From: Candidatus Woesearchaeota archaeon
GTDB lineage: Archaea; Nanobdellota; Nanobdellia; Woesearchaeales; B72-G16
NCBI GenBank assembly: GCA_003650545.1
Contig: QMQO01000014.1
Location: 1 to 32,029, forward strand
DNA length: 32,029 nucleotides
Direction: 5' to 3'
Shown here: positions 6,174 through 22,439 of the stretch, piece after piece
How positions within the stretch are numbered: position 1 is the first letter of the stretch
How the letters are laid out: every line of letters begins with the position of its first letter
Program-made: the position numbers and the translations under genes
The notes under the pieces: generated by a model
Told to the model about the DNA's origin: nothing
Seen by the model: only the letters and a program-made list of their open reading frames with translations
Database searches by the model: none

Positions 6174-9100
6174 ATGGAAGCTACAGAACAAATAAACATA
6201 TTTCGCGAATTTTTTGATACTCATTATTATGCAGAACTTCTTGAAAATATTCGAAAAGGAAAGAATTTTATTATTGTCGATTTTGGCAAGTTAGCTAAAT
6301 TTAATCCTGAATTGGCAGAAAATTTGCTAGATCATCCAGAAGAAGTCACTAAAGCAGCAGAGCTAGCAATAGAGCAGTTCGATCTTCCACAAGAAACACA
6401 CAACTTCAGAATTCGCTTTTTTAATCTGCCAGAATCACAAAAAATCATGATACGAAATATTAGAAGTAAACATATTGGAAAACTTTTATGGATGGAAGGT
6501 ACTGTTCGTCAAAAATCTGATGTGAGGCCACAAGTCACAAATGCGCGTTTCGAATGTCCTAGCTGCGGCAACATAATTGCAGTACTACAACTTGATAAAA
6601 AATTTCGCGAACCCTCAACATGCGGATGTGGTCGCAAAGGTAAATTCCGCTTGCTTTCAAAGGAGTTAATAGATGCACAAGGCCTCACAATAGAAGAAGC
6701 TCCAGAAGATCTAGAAGGTGGTGAACAACCAAAAAGAATTCAGGTGTTGCTTAAGGAAGATCTAGTTAGTCCTATAACCGAAAAAAAAACAAACCCTGGA
6801 AGTAAAATTAGACTTATTGGTATAATAAAAGAAGTTCCTATATCTGCACGCGATGGAGGCCAGCTTACTAGATTTGACTTAATTATCGAAGGCAACAATA
6901 TCGAAGCCGTACAAGAAGATTTCACGCAGATAGAGATAACAGACGAAGAAGTGCAAGAACTACTAAAAATTTCAAAAGATCCAAAACTTTATGAAAACTT
7001 GATCGAATCTATTGCCCCCTCAATCTATGGTCTTGAACGAATTAAAGAAGCTTTGCTTTTACAAATGGTTGGCGGTGTTAGAAAAGTCAGAAGTGATGGT
7101 GTTGTAACCCGTGGTGACATGCACATACTGCTAATGGGAGACCCTGGTGCAGCTAAATCCCAGATGTTAAAAAGGGTAGCAGACGTTGCGCCAAAAGCTC
7201 GCTTTGTCTCAGGTAAAGGCGCTTCTGGCGCAGGTTTAACAGCGGCAGTTGTTCGCGATGAATTCATCTCTGGTTGGAGTCTTGAAGCTGGTGCCCTTGT
7301 ACTAGCTAATAAAGGGATTTGTTGCACTACAGAAGATTCCGAGTTTATTTTAGAAAATGGAAAGAAAATATCATTTAAAAAGTTATTTGAATCTGAAATG
7401 AGATCTATAATTTATCCAAAATTCAAAATTCTTGCTCTCAACAATAAAACACTTAAAATTGAGCCATTCGAAATAAAAAAAGCTTTCAAAATTAAAAATA
7501 ATAAAAAAGTATATAAGATTCGAACGAGAACTGGTAGAGAGCTCAATTTAACAGAGGACAATGAAGTTTTAGTTTGCCAAAACTCGAAATTGATCTGGAA
7601 ACCTATCAGGCAGGTTAATAAAGGATCATATATTGCGGTTCCAAAAAAGATCACAATAAATAAAACAGATTCGTACTCTAAAGAGTTTGCTTATATGTGC
7701 GGACTAGTTGCATCTGAAAATCATATGAAAATTAATTCTAAAAATATACAAGCTGGCAATATATCGACAAATAAAAAGACGAAAATAGATATAATCAAAG
7801 ATAAAAAAAACGCTTCAAAGAAAAGCATATATGATGCTCTCGATTCAAAAGATTTCGCTAAAAAACTTATTTTATTTGGCATTCAAACAGAGAATATATC
7901 TACAAAATCTTTACTTGACAATAAGATTCTGACATATTCTGATGAAACAATCTCAAGTTTCTTAAAAGGAATATTCGATGGAGGAAGCTTTATTAACCTA
8001 AATCCTCTTAAAATAACTCTTGTTGCGAAAGTAGAAAAAAATGCTAGATTGTTTCAAGAACTTCTGGTTAGGCTAGGGATCATTTCGTCTGTTAAGAGAT
8101 CTGCTAAGTCATGGTATTGTGAAATCAGAGGTGCAACAAATTGCCTGAAATTCTTTAAAAAAATCGGCACAAACAATGACAACAAGTTTAAAAAACTTAC
8201 AAAAATAAATCTCAAAGAAGTTAAAGAAGGAATAGATGTTTTACCAGAACATCAAAGATTCTTTAAAGAAATAATTAAAAAACATTGTAAGAAATTAGGA
8301 AAAGCGAAACAGAGATATTTTTGGAATCGTGCTAAAAAAGGTATGGCCTTTTCTAAATATGAGCTTGCACAATTAAATAAATTGTTAGAAGATGGGTATA
8401 TAGCTAAGCATGTTGAAAGCGATATACTTTGGGATAAAATAGCATCAATTAGAGAAATCAAAGCAGAATATGTATATGATTTTACTATGAAAAAAACAAA
8501 CAATTTTATTGCAAATAACATCATAATGCATAATTGTATAGACGAAATTGACAAAATGTCTCAAGAGGATACTAGTGCTATGCATGAAGCGTTAGAAGGA
8601 CAAACTGTAACTATCAGTAAGGCAAATATCCAAGCAACATTGAGAGCAGAGACAACAGTGCTTGCTGCAGCCAACCCCAAATTCGGTAGATTTGATCCAT
8701 ATGACATTCCCGCCAAGCAAATTAATCTTCCTCCAACACTAATAAACAGATTTGATCTACTTTTTCCGATAAAGGATACACCTGATGAAGTTAAAGACAG
8801 AAAGCTTGCAACCCATATTTTAGCATTACATCAAGATCCTAAAATGGACGAACCCAAAATTAGCACAAAACTTCTACGGAAATATATAATCTATGCAAAA
8901 CAAAATGTATTTCCAAAATTAACAGATGCTGCTATTGAAGAAATTAAGAATTATTATGTAGAAATCCGCAACAAAGAAACTGGTGAAGCTGGTCTTAAAT
9001 CCGTTCCACTTACTGCAAGACAACTCGAAGCTTTGGTTAGAATGACAGAAGCAAATGCTAGGTTGCGTCTTTCACAGGAAGCAACAAGACAAGATGCTAA

Positions 9101-9404
9101 ACGCGCAATTGATCTGTTACACTACTGTCTAAGTAACATCGGTATCGACCCTGAAACTGGTAAGTTTGATATAGATCGTATTTCTACTGGAATCACAACA
9201 AGCGAGAGAAGTAAATTAGTTGTTGTTCGTGAGATCATAAACGAACTGGAAAATAAAATTGGAAAAACCATTCCAATCGAAGATGTCGTTGAGGCTGCTG
9301 CGGCCCAGGGTGTAGAAGAGAGTCAAGTGGAAGAAGCTATTGAAAAGCTAAAACGTTCAGGAGACATTTTTGAGCCTAGGAGGGGGTTCTTAAGTAAGAT
9401 TTAA
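6174..9404 (+). CDS. mcm: Replicative helicase MCM, interrupted by an intein
   Basis: The archaeal replicative helicase; without its intein it would be 672 residues, the normal size. The N-terminal DNA-binding part holds a zinc finger with cysteines 128, 131, 150 and 152. Walker A is GDPGAAKS at 322-329. Walker B is split: the frame reads GIC (381-383), then a 404-residue intein, then CIDEIDKM from residue 788. The arginine-finger region LINRFDLLF and a C-terminal winged helix follow. The unspliced protein would have its ATPase site disrupted, so helicase activity should depend on protein splicing. The ATG start follows a GGGGG ribosome binding site. It lies between TBP and the convergent PCNA gene. 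Confidence 0.97.
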   Translation: MEATEQINIFREFFDTHYYAELLENIRKGKNFIIVDFGKLAKFNPELAENLLDHPEEVTKAAELAIEQFDLPQETHNFRIRFFNLPESQKIMIRNIRSKHIGKLLWMEGTVRQKSDVRPQVTNARFECPSCGNIIAVLQLDKKFREPSTCGCGRKGKFRLLSKELIDAQGLTIEEAPEDLEGGEQPKRIQVLLKEDLVSPITEKKTNPGSKIRLIGIIKEVPISARDGGQLTRFDLIIEGNNIEAVQEDFTQIEITDEEVQELLKISKDPKLYENLIESIAPSIYGLERIKEALLLQMVGGVRKVRSDGVVTRGDMHILLMGDPGAAKSQMLKRVADVAPKARFVSGKGASGAGLTAAVVRDEFISGWSLEAGALVLANKGICCTTEDSEFILENGKKISFKKLFESEMRSIIYPKFKILALNNKTLKIEPFEIKKAFKIKNNKKVYKIRTRTGRELNLTEDNEVLVCQNSKLIWKPIRQVNKGSYIAVPKKITINKTDSYSKEFAYMCGLVASENHMKINSKNIQAGNISTNKKTKIDIIKDKKNASKKSIYDALDSKDFAKKLILFGIQTENISTKSLLDNKILTYSDETISSFLKGIFDGGSFINLNPLKITLVAKVEKNARLFQELLVRLGIISSVKRSAKSWYCEIRGATNCLKFFKKIGTNNDNKFKKLTKINLKEVKEGIDVLPEHQRFFKEIIKKHCKKLGKAKQRYFWNRAKKGMAFSKYELAQLNKLLEDGYIAKHVESDILWDKIASIREIKAEYVYDFTMKKTNNFIANNIIMHNCIDEIDKMSQEDTSAMHEALEGQTVTISKANIQATLRAETTVLAAANPKFGRFDPYDIPAKQINLPPTLINRFDLLFPIKDTPDEVKDRKLATHILALHQDPKMDEPKISTKLLRKYIIYAKQNVFPKLTDAAIEEIKNYYVEIRNKETGEAGLKSVPLTARQLEALVRMTEANARLRLSQEATRQDAKRAIDLLHYCLSNIGIDPETGKFDIDRISTGITTSERSKLVVVREIINELENKIGKTIPIEDVVEAAAAQGVEESQVEEAIEKLKRSGDIFEPRRGFLSKI
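7323..8534 (+). mobile_element. Intein in the MCM Walker B motif, with degenerate LAGLIDADG endonuclease
   Basis: Residues 384-787 of the MCM frame form an intein. It starts with Cys (CTTEDSEFIL), ends with FIANNIIMHN, and is followed by an extein Cys, so the splice-junction residues, penultimate His and terminal Asn are all present. Block B reads GRELNLTEDNEVLV, where the usual histidine is Asn at intein residue 80 (codon AAT). The endonuclease domain is degenerate. The first motif is GLVASEN (127-133), with Glu and Asn where Asp-Gly is usual. The second is GIFDGGSF, which looks like GIFDGDGSF with the catalytic Asp codon deleted. Homing is therefore probably lost. Splicing must still work if the cell relies on this single MCM. 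Confidence 0.93.
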
Positions 9405-12350: not shown

Positions 12351-12354
12351 TTTG

Positions 12355-12363
12355 AAAAAAAAA
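12355..12363 (-). terminator. Nine-T tract between tRNA-Leu and the HAD gene
   Basis: On the minus strand nine consecutive T follow the tRNA 3' end by six bases. This fits termination of the tRNA transcript, yet it lies just four bases before the HAD start codon, leaving no room for a separate HAD promoter outside the tRNA gene. Confidence 0.5.
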
Positions 12364-12415
12364 GACGGATGCGGGGAGGAGGATTCGAACCCCCGTAGGC
12401 ACTAAGCCAACAGAT

Positions 12416-12466
12416 GGCTCACAGGAGCACTTCATTGCTAAGTTGCTTAGCTCATCACTCAATTAA
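12416..12466 (-). other. tRNA-Leu intron 3 (canonical 37/38, 51 bases)
   Basis: The central helix is CTCA (anticodon loop, 12472-12469) with TGAG (intron, 12421-12418). The bulges are AG|T and CC|A. The outer helix is the anticodon stem ACAGA/TCTGT, complete only after intron 2 has gone. The intron also contains a perfect GCTAAG-CAA-CTTAGC hairpin. Confidence 0.85.
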
Positions 12467-12473
12467 CTTGAGT

Positions 12474-12504
12474 TAGGACGTTTTAGCGCCATATGCCAAA
12501 AACA
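12474..12504 (-). other. tRNA-Leu intron 2 (anticodon stem 30/31, 31 bases)
   Basis: The central helix is GGAC (exon, 12510-12507) with GTCC (intron, 12479-12476). The bulges are AG|T and TA|A, and the inner helix is GTTTT/AAAAC. The exon strand of the central helix uses bases that end up as positions 25-28, so this fold competes with the D stem and anticodon stem of the mature form. Confidence 0.85.
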
Positions 12505-12520
12505 CTGTCCCGTTTGGCCA

Positions 12521-12564
12521 CTCCGGACACATAGCGTGTAGGAGTGCACGAACGCCAGTGAGTT
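12521..12564 (-). other. tRNA-Leu intron 1 (D loop, 44 bases)
   Basis: The central helix is CCGG at 12570-12567 in exon 1 with CCGG at 12526-12523 in the intron. The bulges are AG|A and AG|T, cut after the second base. The inner helix ACTCA/TGTGT has one U-U mismatch, and GCGT/ACGC closes further in. The outer helix is weak. Removal restores a D loop with A14, G15 and the GG pair. Confidence 0.82.
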
Positions 12565-12608
12565 CTCCGGCATCCCCGCAGTTGCGTAATAAGAGAAGTA
12601 AGTATCCA

Positions 12609-12617
12609 TTTATAAAA
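12609..12617 (-). promoter_or_regulatory. TATA element for tRNA-Leu
   Basis: On the minus strand TTTTATAAA lies about 33 bases upstream of the first tRNA base, the expected spacing for a start a few bases before the tRNA. Confidence 0.6.
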
Positions 12618-12643: not shown

Positions 12644-13099
12644 TCAGACAAGTTTTCCTAACTTGCTTTCTATTTCACCCAATTCAGACTCTAGTTTGTC
12701 CAACTGTGTTGCAATCTTTGGTTTTGCAACAACAATTTTCTTTTCCTTTTTCTTTGAACTAATCTTTTTACCTTTCTTTCCCTTAATCTTTTTCTTAACA
12801 TTTTCTCCTGTCATCCTTGCAGCCTTCTTCTCAATCTTTTCTTCAAATTCTGGTGTCTTAAATCTTAACGAAGTTTTAGGTAAAGAAGCTTTCAACTTTG
12901 CTATATCCCGAGAGATGCTAGATATAAGTTGTTTAAGTCTGTCAACTTCTTCTTGTCTTTCCTTTCTTACAGTTTTAAATTTTTCATAACGCTGTAATAA
13001 TTGTACGACATCTTTTGATGATTCTAGAATAGAACGCCTGATCTCTACAGGATCTTTTATTCCAACATAGACAACATCTTTATCTTTTTCAGCCACCAT
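12644..13099 (-). CDS. Coiled-coil protein of unknown function, operon gene 3
   Basis: I do not recognise the family. The 151-residue protein has a short N-terminal part (VVYVGIKDPVEIRRSILESSK), a long coiled-coil helix at about residues 25-75, a very basic linker rich in Lys around 95-120, and a short C-terminal helix with regular Leu-Glu spacing. It has no signal peptide or membrane segment. The chosen ATG follows AAGGTGAC, a good ribosome binding site; the frame itself opens 16 codons earlier, but that would run into the upstream gene. It is the last of three small genes spaced by about 10 bases. Lys-rich linkers suggest binding to nucleic acid or membrane, which is inference only. Confidence 0.75.
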   Translation of the reverse strand: MVAEKDKDVVYVGIKDPVEIRRSILESSKDVVQLLQRYEKFKTVRKERQEEVDRLKQLISSISRDIAKLKASLPKTSLRFKTPEFEEKIEKKAARMTGENVKKKIKGKKGKKISSKKKEKKIVVAKPKIATQLDKLESELGEIESKLGKLV

Positions 13100-13109
13100 T
13101 TTTGTCACC

Positions 13110-13346
13110 TTAAACGGCATTAGGTTCAAATAAGACTTTATCAACAAAGCTTACTTTTCTTTCTGCTTCATCTAGGGCTGCTTGCCATAGCTCTAGTTCA
13201 GCGTCTTCTTCATTCTTCAGTTCATAAATTTTGCCAAGCGTATCTCTAGCATCAATAATCTTATTTTTAATCATGTTCATTACATCCAACACATCTTTAT
13301 ATTCTTCTATTTTAACAAAGACCGGCATTAATTCGTCTGTCATCAT
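13110..13346 (-). CDS. Small helical protein of unknown function, operon gene 2
   Basis: The product is 78 residues, acidic and almost entirely helical, without signal peptide or membrane segment. Its last 26 residues, ending in RKVSFVDKVLFEP, match the end of the upstream gene's protein, RKLIFVDKTLFEA, at the same distance from a Trp and a run of acidic residues. The two are therefore probably paralogues sharing a C-terminal domain. The start ATG follows GAGGGTGG; a second ATG directly after it could be used instead. It lies 10 bases from both neighbours in the three-gene operon. Confidence 0.72.
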   Translation of the reverse strand: MMTDELMPVFVKIEEYKDVLDVMNMIKNKIIDARDTLGKIYELKNEEDAELELWQAALDEAERKVSFVDKVLFEPNAV

Positions 13347-13356
13347 ACCACCCTCT

Positions 13357-13830
13357 TTATTTTGCTTCGAATAATGTTTTATCAACAAATATAAGTTTTC
13401 TTTGAATATCTTCTAATGAACGCTTCCATTTCTCAAATTCTTTATCTTTATCTGTTTTAAGTTCATCGAGTCTTTTAAGTTCATCATTAGATTTCCTTAA
13501 AACACTGTTTGCAGAAGATATCTCCCTAACCATTTCCATAAAATTTTCTGCCATCACAAATATTGGCTTTGTGAGTACTAAACCCTCTCTTACAGCCAGT
13601 TGCTCTTTTGTCTTTGAAACCGCTCTCCTCTCTAGAGGTGTTACTTTTGTCTCTCTCTCTGTTGACACAACCTCTTCAACTTTAGGTTCTTCTGTTTTCA
13701 CTTCAACTGTTGGTTGTTCTTTCTGCAGAGTTCTCACCCTGTATTCTGGCGGAGCTGGAGGTGCTTCTAATTCTTCTTTAAACTTTTCAGCACCTTCTTT
13801 ATGTCTACCTAAGAATTTTAAAAATGCCAC
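13357..13830 (-). CDS. Coiled-coil protein with Pro/Glu-rich linker, operon gene 1
   Basis: The 157-residue protein has three parts: a short N-terminal segment (AFLKFLGRHKEGAEKF), a linker rich in Pro, Glu, Val and Thr at about 20-70, and a C-terminal helical domain from about 95 with coiled-coil character ending in IFVDKTLFEAK. That last motif recurs in the next gene. The frame opens far upstream, but the GTG at 13830 is preferred: it follows GAGGTGAG, and the longer start would cross the TATA element at 13862-13871. No signal or membrane segment is seen. It heads a three-gene operon of unknown function. Confidence 0.72.
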   Translation of the reverse strand: MAFLKFLGRHKEGAEKFKEELEAPPAPPEYRVRTLQKEQPTVEVKTEEPKVEEVVSTERETKVTPLERRAVSKTKEQLAVREGLVLTKPIFVMAENFMEMVREISSANSVLRKSNDELKRLDELKTDKDKEFEKWKRSLEDIQRKLIFVDKTLFEAK

Positions 13831-13861
13831 ATACTCACCTCTCAATGACAGAATAAAATCC

Positions 13862-13871
13862 CTTATATAAA
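13862..13871 (-). promoter_or_regulatory. TATA element for the three-gene coiled-coil operon
   Basis: On the minus strand TTTATATAAG lies about 36 bases before the GTG start of the first gene, giving a short leader with its ribosome binding site. Confidence 0.55.
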
Positions 13872-13994
13872 CTTTGTGAACTATTATAAAATAATAACAA
13901 AAACGAAAACCGTCAATATATACTCTATATAAAGCACATATTATATAGAAAATATAGAGCAAGTCATAAATAATTCCTTGCCAGTATAATAGTC

Positions 13995-22141: not shown

Positions 22142-22439
22142 AGTGTAGAAAAGCGCTTGATATCCGCAATTTTGTGAGGAAAGTCCGTCCACCATAAAAA
22201 GGCCACTTCCGTAAGGGAGGCCTATAAGCGGCGGCAACCGCTCAGAAACGAAACCGTCTTGGTTAAGGGTGATACGAGCGAATGCTTCTGAGAAGAAGCA
22301 GAGCTAACCCGTTGACGTTTCCAAGACAAGGATGAAACGGCGAGTCCTGGTCGGTGCAACTTAAGAAAGGCTTAGTAGAATATCAAACAGACCGTCCCCA
22401 TAGGGGTCTGACAAAAGACGGCTTATGCTTTTCTACACT
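22142..22439 (+). ncRNA. rnpB: RNase P RNA (archaeal type A)
   Basis: This RNA is the catalytic core of RNase P, which trims the 5' end of tRNA precursors. A 13-bp P1 stem closes the ends (AGTGTAGAAAAGC with GCTTTTCTACACT). The universally conserved GAGGAAAGTCCGTCC follows at about 22177, the CGGTGCAACTT and TTAGTAGAATATC segments lie further on, and the 3' AAAAGACGGCTTAT ends it, as in bacterial and archaeal P RNAs. The length of about 298 bases is usual. It has its own TATA element and is followed by a T-rich tail. A tRNA gene with three introns lies in the same window, but the two are separate transcripts. Confidence 0.95.

Follow-up and report, generated by a model that had tools for sequence, protein, structure and literature searches.

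The window, a term used here for the whole 32,029-nt stretch of DNA that was analysed, is a single contig of a fragmented 1.64-Mb MAG that is 85% complete. Its genes include PCNA, RNase J, a HAD hydrolase, an intein-bearing MCM, DNA polymerase D (DP2) and gyrase A. The MCM helicase gene (6174-9404) carries an in-frame intein with splicing and LAGLIDADG domains, and a full-length archaeal RNase P RNA (124 bits) lies at 22145-22436. On the minus strand, a 210-nt gene for pre-tRNA-Leu(CAA) is interrupted by three introns and accompanied by TATA-box-like and terminator-like stretches:

12609..12616, minus strand: TATA-box-like TTTATAAA, 30-37 nt upstream of the tRNA start, a candidate read directly from the sequence
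12370..12579, minus strand: pre-tRNA-Leu(CAA) gene, 210 nt, three introns (gene model, ARAGORN on the spliced form, blind search, orthologues)
12565..12579, minus strand: exon 1, positions 1-15
12521..12564, minus strand: intron 1, 44 nt, in the D loop at 15/16, with a CCGGAG repeat on each side and central helix CCGG/CCGG
12505..12520, minus strand: exon 2, positions 16-30
12474..12504, minus strand: intron 2, 31 nt, in the anticodon stem at 30/31, central helix GGAC/GTCC
12467..12473, minus strand: exon 3, ACTCAAG, positions 31-37, anticodon CAA
12416..12466, minus strand: intron 3, 51 nt, at the canonical 37/38 site, central helix CTCA/TGAG
12370..12415, minus strand: exon 4, positions 38-73, with variable arm, T arm and acceptor, no encoded CCA
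12353..12362, minus strand: terminator-like oligo-T run just downstream of the gene, ends approximate, a candidate found by the same direct reading

Excision of 44, 31 and 51 nt after positions 15, 30 and 37 yields GCGGGGATGCCGGAGTGGCCAAACGGGACAGACTCAAGATCTGTTGGCTTAGTGCCTACGGGGGTTCGAATCCTCCTCCCCGCA, an 84-nt class II tRNA-Leu(CAA) with a complete cloverleaf in which all stems are paired, and ARAGORN calls this spliced 84-mer tRNA-Leu(CAA). All three junctions combine a 4-bp central helix with 3-nt bulges, the predicted cuts falling after the second bulge base. Only intron 3 occupies the canonical 37/38 site, while introns 1 and 2 lie at 15/16 and 30/31. An earlier note on this DNA had proposed a gene with exactly these coordinates, intron lengths and junction motifs with their bulge cuts; in tRNA numbering, its 'anticodon stem' intron is the one at 30/31 and its D-loop intron the one at 15/16. 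Intron 1 has CCGGAG at either end, a repeat that prevents its exact cut site from being fixed from the product.

The relatives of the host RNase J are overwhelmingly records of Candidatus Woesearchaeota or 'Nanoarchaeota'. The host, a tiny uncultured archaeon, belongs to a DPANN order, in agreement with the DPANN guess of the earlier note; the named relatives in this order are mostly Woesearchaeota. Two contigs labelled Aminicenantes bacterium and Methanosarcinales (L037, L069) also carry close relatives of the woesearchaeal-type RNase J; these labels are probably binning errors in the public records.

The unspliced gene receives no call from ARAGORN and has no Rfam tRNA match, bearing out the warning that it could be missed. 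An intron-aware finder that was given no prior intron positions ranked the three-intron solution first, which is again the gene model of the earlier note. With three free introns the search space is large, and the tRNA likeness of a pseudogene or chance assembly could stem from a generous choice of introns; when the acceptor stem and T arm were fixed and the interior was dinucleotide-shuffled, shuffles scored up to 30.5. However, none of the 400 anchored shuffles reached the 32.8 of the window gene, and false solutions in about 160 other stretches of the host genome scored at most 28.2. The 85%-complete host genome yielded no second intact tRNA-Leu(CAA), which according to the earlier note would make this copy a pseudogene; the other DNA matches there are tRNA-Leu(TAG) and tRNA-Leu(GAG). 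Together with the 41 orthologues described below, which share two of the junctions with compensatory changes, these results already strongly contradict a pseudogene or chance reading, which we consider hardly credible.

For the orthologue set, the order was searched with the window gene and the matches were parsed blindly by the finder. The pair of introns at 30/31 and 37/38 is present in the tRNA-Leu(CAA) of 41 other genomes of the same DPANN order, and this solution is top-ranked in 40 of them. Mean identity to the window gene is 90% in the exons and 66% in the introns. In all 42 genomes the central helix of the 30/31 junction, formed between exon and intron, is paired, and it shows 14 both-side changes. 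The anticodon stem, although split by the two introns, is likewise paired throughout (100%), again with 14 both-side changes. Such compensatory changes across the predicted intron-exon helices support the gene model. Fifteen of the pre-tRNAs are present unchanged in named public contigs. Among the 34 loci that are long enough, RNase J is a conserved neighbour in 19 and an upstream gene in 22; the latter corresponds to ORF 12644-13147, which, like ORF 13357-13962 upstream of the tRNA, has no Pfam match. The earlier note had called several introns in such a genome unexpected. The introns themselves stand, but multi-intron tRNAs are already listed for the DPANN members N. equitans and ARMAN (PMC4033280) and for Asgard archaea (PMC11291895), and the 30/31 and 37/38 pair is common in the order.

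A third intron occurs in nine of the 41 other genomes, at 21/22, 59/60 or in the variable arm, and the tRNA-Leu(CAA) of G023 (L123) has four predicted introns, at 15/16, 30/31, 37/38 and 59/60. The 15/16 intron of the window gene recurs in two other genomes only (L123 and L130), with inserts that are unrelated in sequence and, in L123, form a strong hairpin. Its absence from nearly all orthologues, the perfect 6-nt CCGGAG repeat at its ends, as left by a recent insertion, and a BHB that exceeds the minimum fold by about 5 kcal/mol would all suit a reading in which only the introns at 30/31 and 37/38 are spliced, and a recent D-loop insert inactivates this copy or leaves in another way. Against this stand the BHB introns located at exactly 15/16 in the two further genomes, the intact exons of the window gene and the lack of another detected tRNA-Leu(CAA) copy. 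Moreover, the D-loop insert carries a usable BHB: CCGG is self-complementary and pairs with itself, so that an insertion duplicating CCGGAG makes a BHB at once, which may account for repeated gain at 15/16. We regard the reading with only two spliced introns as very unlikely. The best explanation is that the 30/31 and 37/38 pair is widely conserved in the order and that the intron in the D loop was added in a lineage-specific manner.

With the gene model, its conservation and an EndA gene in hand, we infer how splicing and its order would run. We are highly confident that this is a working, apparently single-copy gene whose three BHB introns are removed by EndA and a ligase in an ordered manner, two of them forming the conserved pair. 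A single EndA-type endonuclease would cut every 3-nt bulge of the pre-tRNA-Leu(CAA), and a putative RtcB-type ligase would join the exons. Of the conserved pair, the 30/31 intron would leave first: its central helix takes up bases 25-28, two of which (27 and 28) are needed by the anticodon stem. Since the 37/38 junction has this stem as its outer helix, splicing there would wait for removal of the 30/31 intron. For other cases, the work on tRNAscan-SE 2.0 reports a dependency of this kind (PMC8450103). In nearest-neighbour folding, the 37/38 BHB of the partly spliced intermediate of the window gene lies about 9 kcal/mol above the preferred fold, and averaged over 50 genes it lies about 6 kcal/mol above the minimum-energy fold. 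The 30/31 BHB of the window gene is about 1 kcal/mol above the minimum, and for most other single introns of the host genome the BHB is the minimum fold. Since minimum-energy folding disfavours these BHB forms, it is uninformative on the order of the three splicing steps.

Intron-bearing tRNAs are abundant in the host genome. Rfam counts six tRNAs there versus 9-43 in 39 relatives. In a survey that was based on T-arm patterns and is therefore incomplete and biased, the intron-aware finder resolved 18 tRNAs, 15 of which are interrupted by at least one intron. When an intact T arm was required, only 7 of the 18 were recovered; the rest emerged by allowing an intron at 59/60 and including more stretches. 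Six tRNAs carry three introns each, namely Lys, Leu(CAA), Leu(TAG), Ser(GCT), Val(TAC) and Phe. Two of the finder's assignments, L005 (Pro GGG) and L008, are doubtful as to intron or anticodon, and L006/L211 (tRNA-Met CAT), L113 and L114 were only partly resolved by eye. Introns in the T loop at 59/60, whose central helices read TTCR/YGAA, occur frequently in the host genome (L118, L115, L019, L176, L213, L214, L237, L238) and hide the affected tRNAs from T-loop-based searches.

The endonuclease gene of the host encodes a 177-aa EndA in which the catalytic Y, H and K residues are present. It aligns collinearly with the EndA of M. jannaschii, interrupted by a single one-residue gap, and its best matches include N. 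equitans alpha. The known specificity loops of broad-specificity EndA are Lys-bearing insertions beside the active site. The insertion of about 10 residues that marks the site of the Crenarchaea-specific loop in A. pernix alpha is absent from the aligned host protein, and 12 genomes are alike in this respect; judged by the same alignment site, the ARMAN loop would also be absent. PF01974 has one match in the host genome, even at E<=10. Across 60 genomes there is one match in 55, two in two, of which one may reflect a gene split where a contig stops, and none in three. A divergent copy or an assembly gap could possibly hide a beta subunit.

The M. jannaschii enzyme is alpha4 and of the 'narrow' class. 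The 'narrow' class has been reported to be inefficient at relaxed BHB motifs (PMC6379350), and according to reviews only (alpha-beta)2 and epsilon2 EndA efficiently remove relaxed-BHB introns (PMC6379350, PMC4033280), loops being the structural basis of broad specificity (PMC12397907). As read from the predicted structures, the 30/31 junction is a relaxed BHB: its inner helix is strong, whereas the outer side has no more than one pair. A lone loop-free EndA alongside non-canonical introns appears to be a new point, at odds with the reports on the narrow class.

The 37/38 intron contains a conserved element:

12425..12460, minus strand: conserved hairpin in intron 3 with a kink-turn signature (tandem GA/AG, 3-nt bulge), from RNAalifold and a covariance model
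12457..12462, minus strand: TTGAGT, complementary to ACUCAA (positions 31-36)
12455-12452, minus strand: NUGA box, one base after TTGAGT

RNAalifold recovered this hairpin unguided; 97% and 93% of cells in the two stems form pairs. With its covariance model, each genome has essentially a single match, which lies in tRNA-Leu(CAA); genes for elongator tRNA-Met(CAT) are matched in addition. By eye, the core features of a hammerhead ribozyme or an H/ACA guide are missing, and both readings were rejected. A tentative idea, which is compatible with the splicing reading given above, is that the 37/38 intron has a second role and, as a reduced guide of the box C/D-like type, directs the 2'-O-methylation of C34 in tRNA-Leu(CAA) and tRNA-Met(CAT). 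In 35 of 50 genes, all six bases of TTGAGT, the 5' stem strand of the hairpin, are complementary to positions 31-36, versus 1.1% of shuffled introns; these counts are not independent since the sequences are related. Counted upstream from the NUGA box, the fifth base, the G in TTGAGT, faces C34, and the tandem G.A/A.G is kept in 38 of 42. The same intron element is found in four tRNA-Met(CAT) genes (L211 of the host genome, L345, L346 and L347), two of which match U36. Precedents are the Pyrococcus C/D RNAs that target position 34 of tRNA-Leu(CAA) and tRNA-Met, and the tRNA-Trp intron, which is a box C/D guide (PMC7994747). Yet of a full box C/D set (C, D, C', D' and two kink-turns) intron 3 shows one kink-turn-like motif only, the second kink-turn not being seen, and the guide stretch spans only about 6 bp. 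GAGU also pairs with ACUC within the intron, and L300 and L305 keep that pairing but lose the guide match. We consider a guide function possible, though doubtful. Unlikely, in our view, is the broader proposal that a lone loop-free EndA removes up to four relaxed-BHB introns per tRNA and that the 37/38 intron of Leu(CAA) and Met(CAT) is a single-kink-turn C34 guide that refolds before splicing.

BHB introns, several per tRNA, are already known from Thermoproteales, Asgard archaea and ARMAN; in a search of the open-licence literature, no description of tRNA introns in Woesearchaeota was found. What is added here is that such introns abound in a DPANN order, that its tRNA-Leu(CAA) has an ancient pair of introns, that one tRNA is predicted to have four, that these introns occur beside a lone loop-free EndA, and that the 37/38 intron holds a conserved element. 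Current accounts tie non-canonical introns to loop-bearing (alpha-beta)2 or epsilon2 EndA and give a maximum of three introns per tRNA (PMC4033280, PMC6379350, PMC12397907, PMC8450103). The DPANN order studied here appears to violate both rules, so that one small enzyme and short RNAs allow a direct test of the rule of EndA-intron co-evolution. In addition, tRNA counts, which are often used to judge the completeness of such genomes, may be badly low.

ARMAN-1/2 and N. equitans are likewise DPANN with multiple-intron tRNAs (PMC4033280). However, ARMAN possess an epsilon2 EndA with the ARMAN loop and N. equitans an alpha/beta EndA (PMC6379350), whereas in the host neither an extra loop nor a beta subunit was detected. 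The intron guide in the pre-tRNA-Trp of Euryarchaeota shares with the element described here a kink-turn-like motif and an antisense to its own anticodon (PMC7994747); the present element differs in residing in tRNA-Leu(CAA) and tRNA-Met(CAT), in its single kink-turn and in its short antisense, and a guide function is only putative for it. In the Asgard lineages Atabeyarchaeia and Freyarchaeia, 92-95% of tRNAs are interrupted, often at non-canonical sites and many by multiple introns (PMC11291895). These are another lineage, and the likeness compared here is that of intron richness. In Thermoproteales such as Pyrobaculum calidifontis, too, a tRNA can have as many as three BHB introns, located at canonical and non-canonical sites, and such genes are missed by simple searches (PMC8450103, PMC4033280, PMC3218864). 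In contrast to their (alpha-beta)2 EndA, which in Crenarchaea bears a specific loop (PMC4033280, PMC6379350), the DPANN order described here has one loop-free alpha-type EndA per genome, and one of its members is predicted to carry four introns in a single tRNA.
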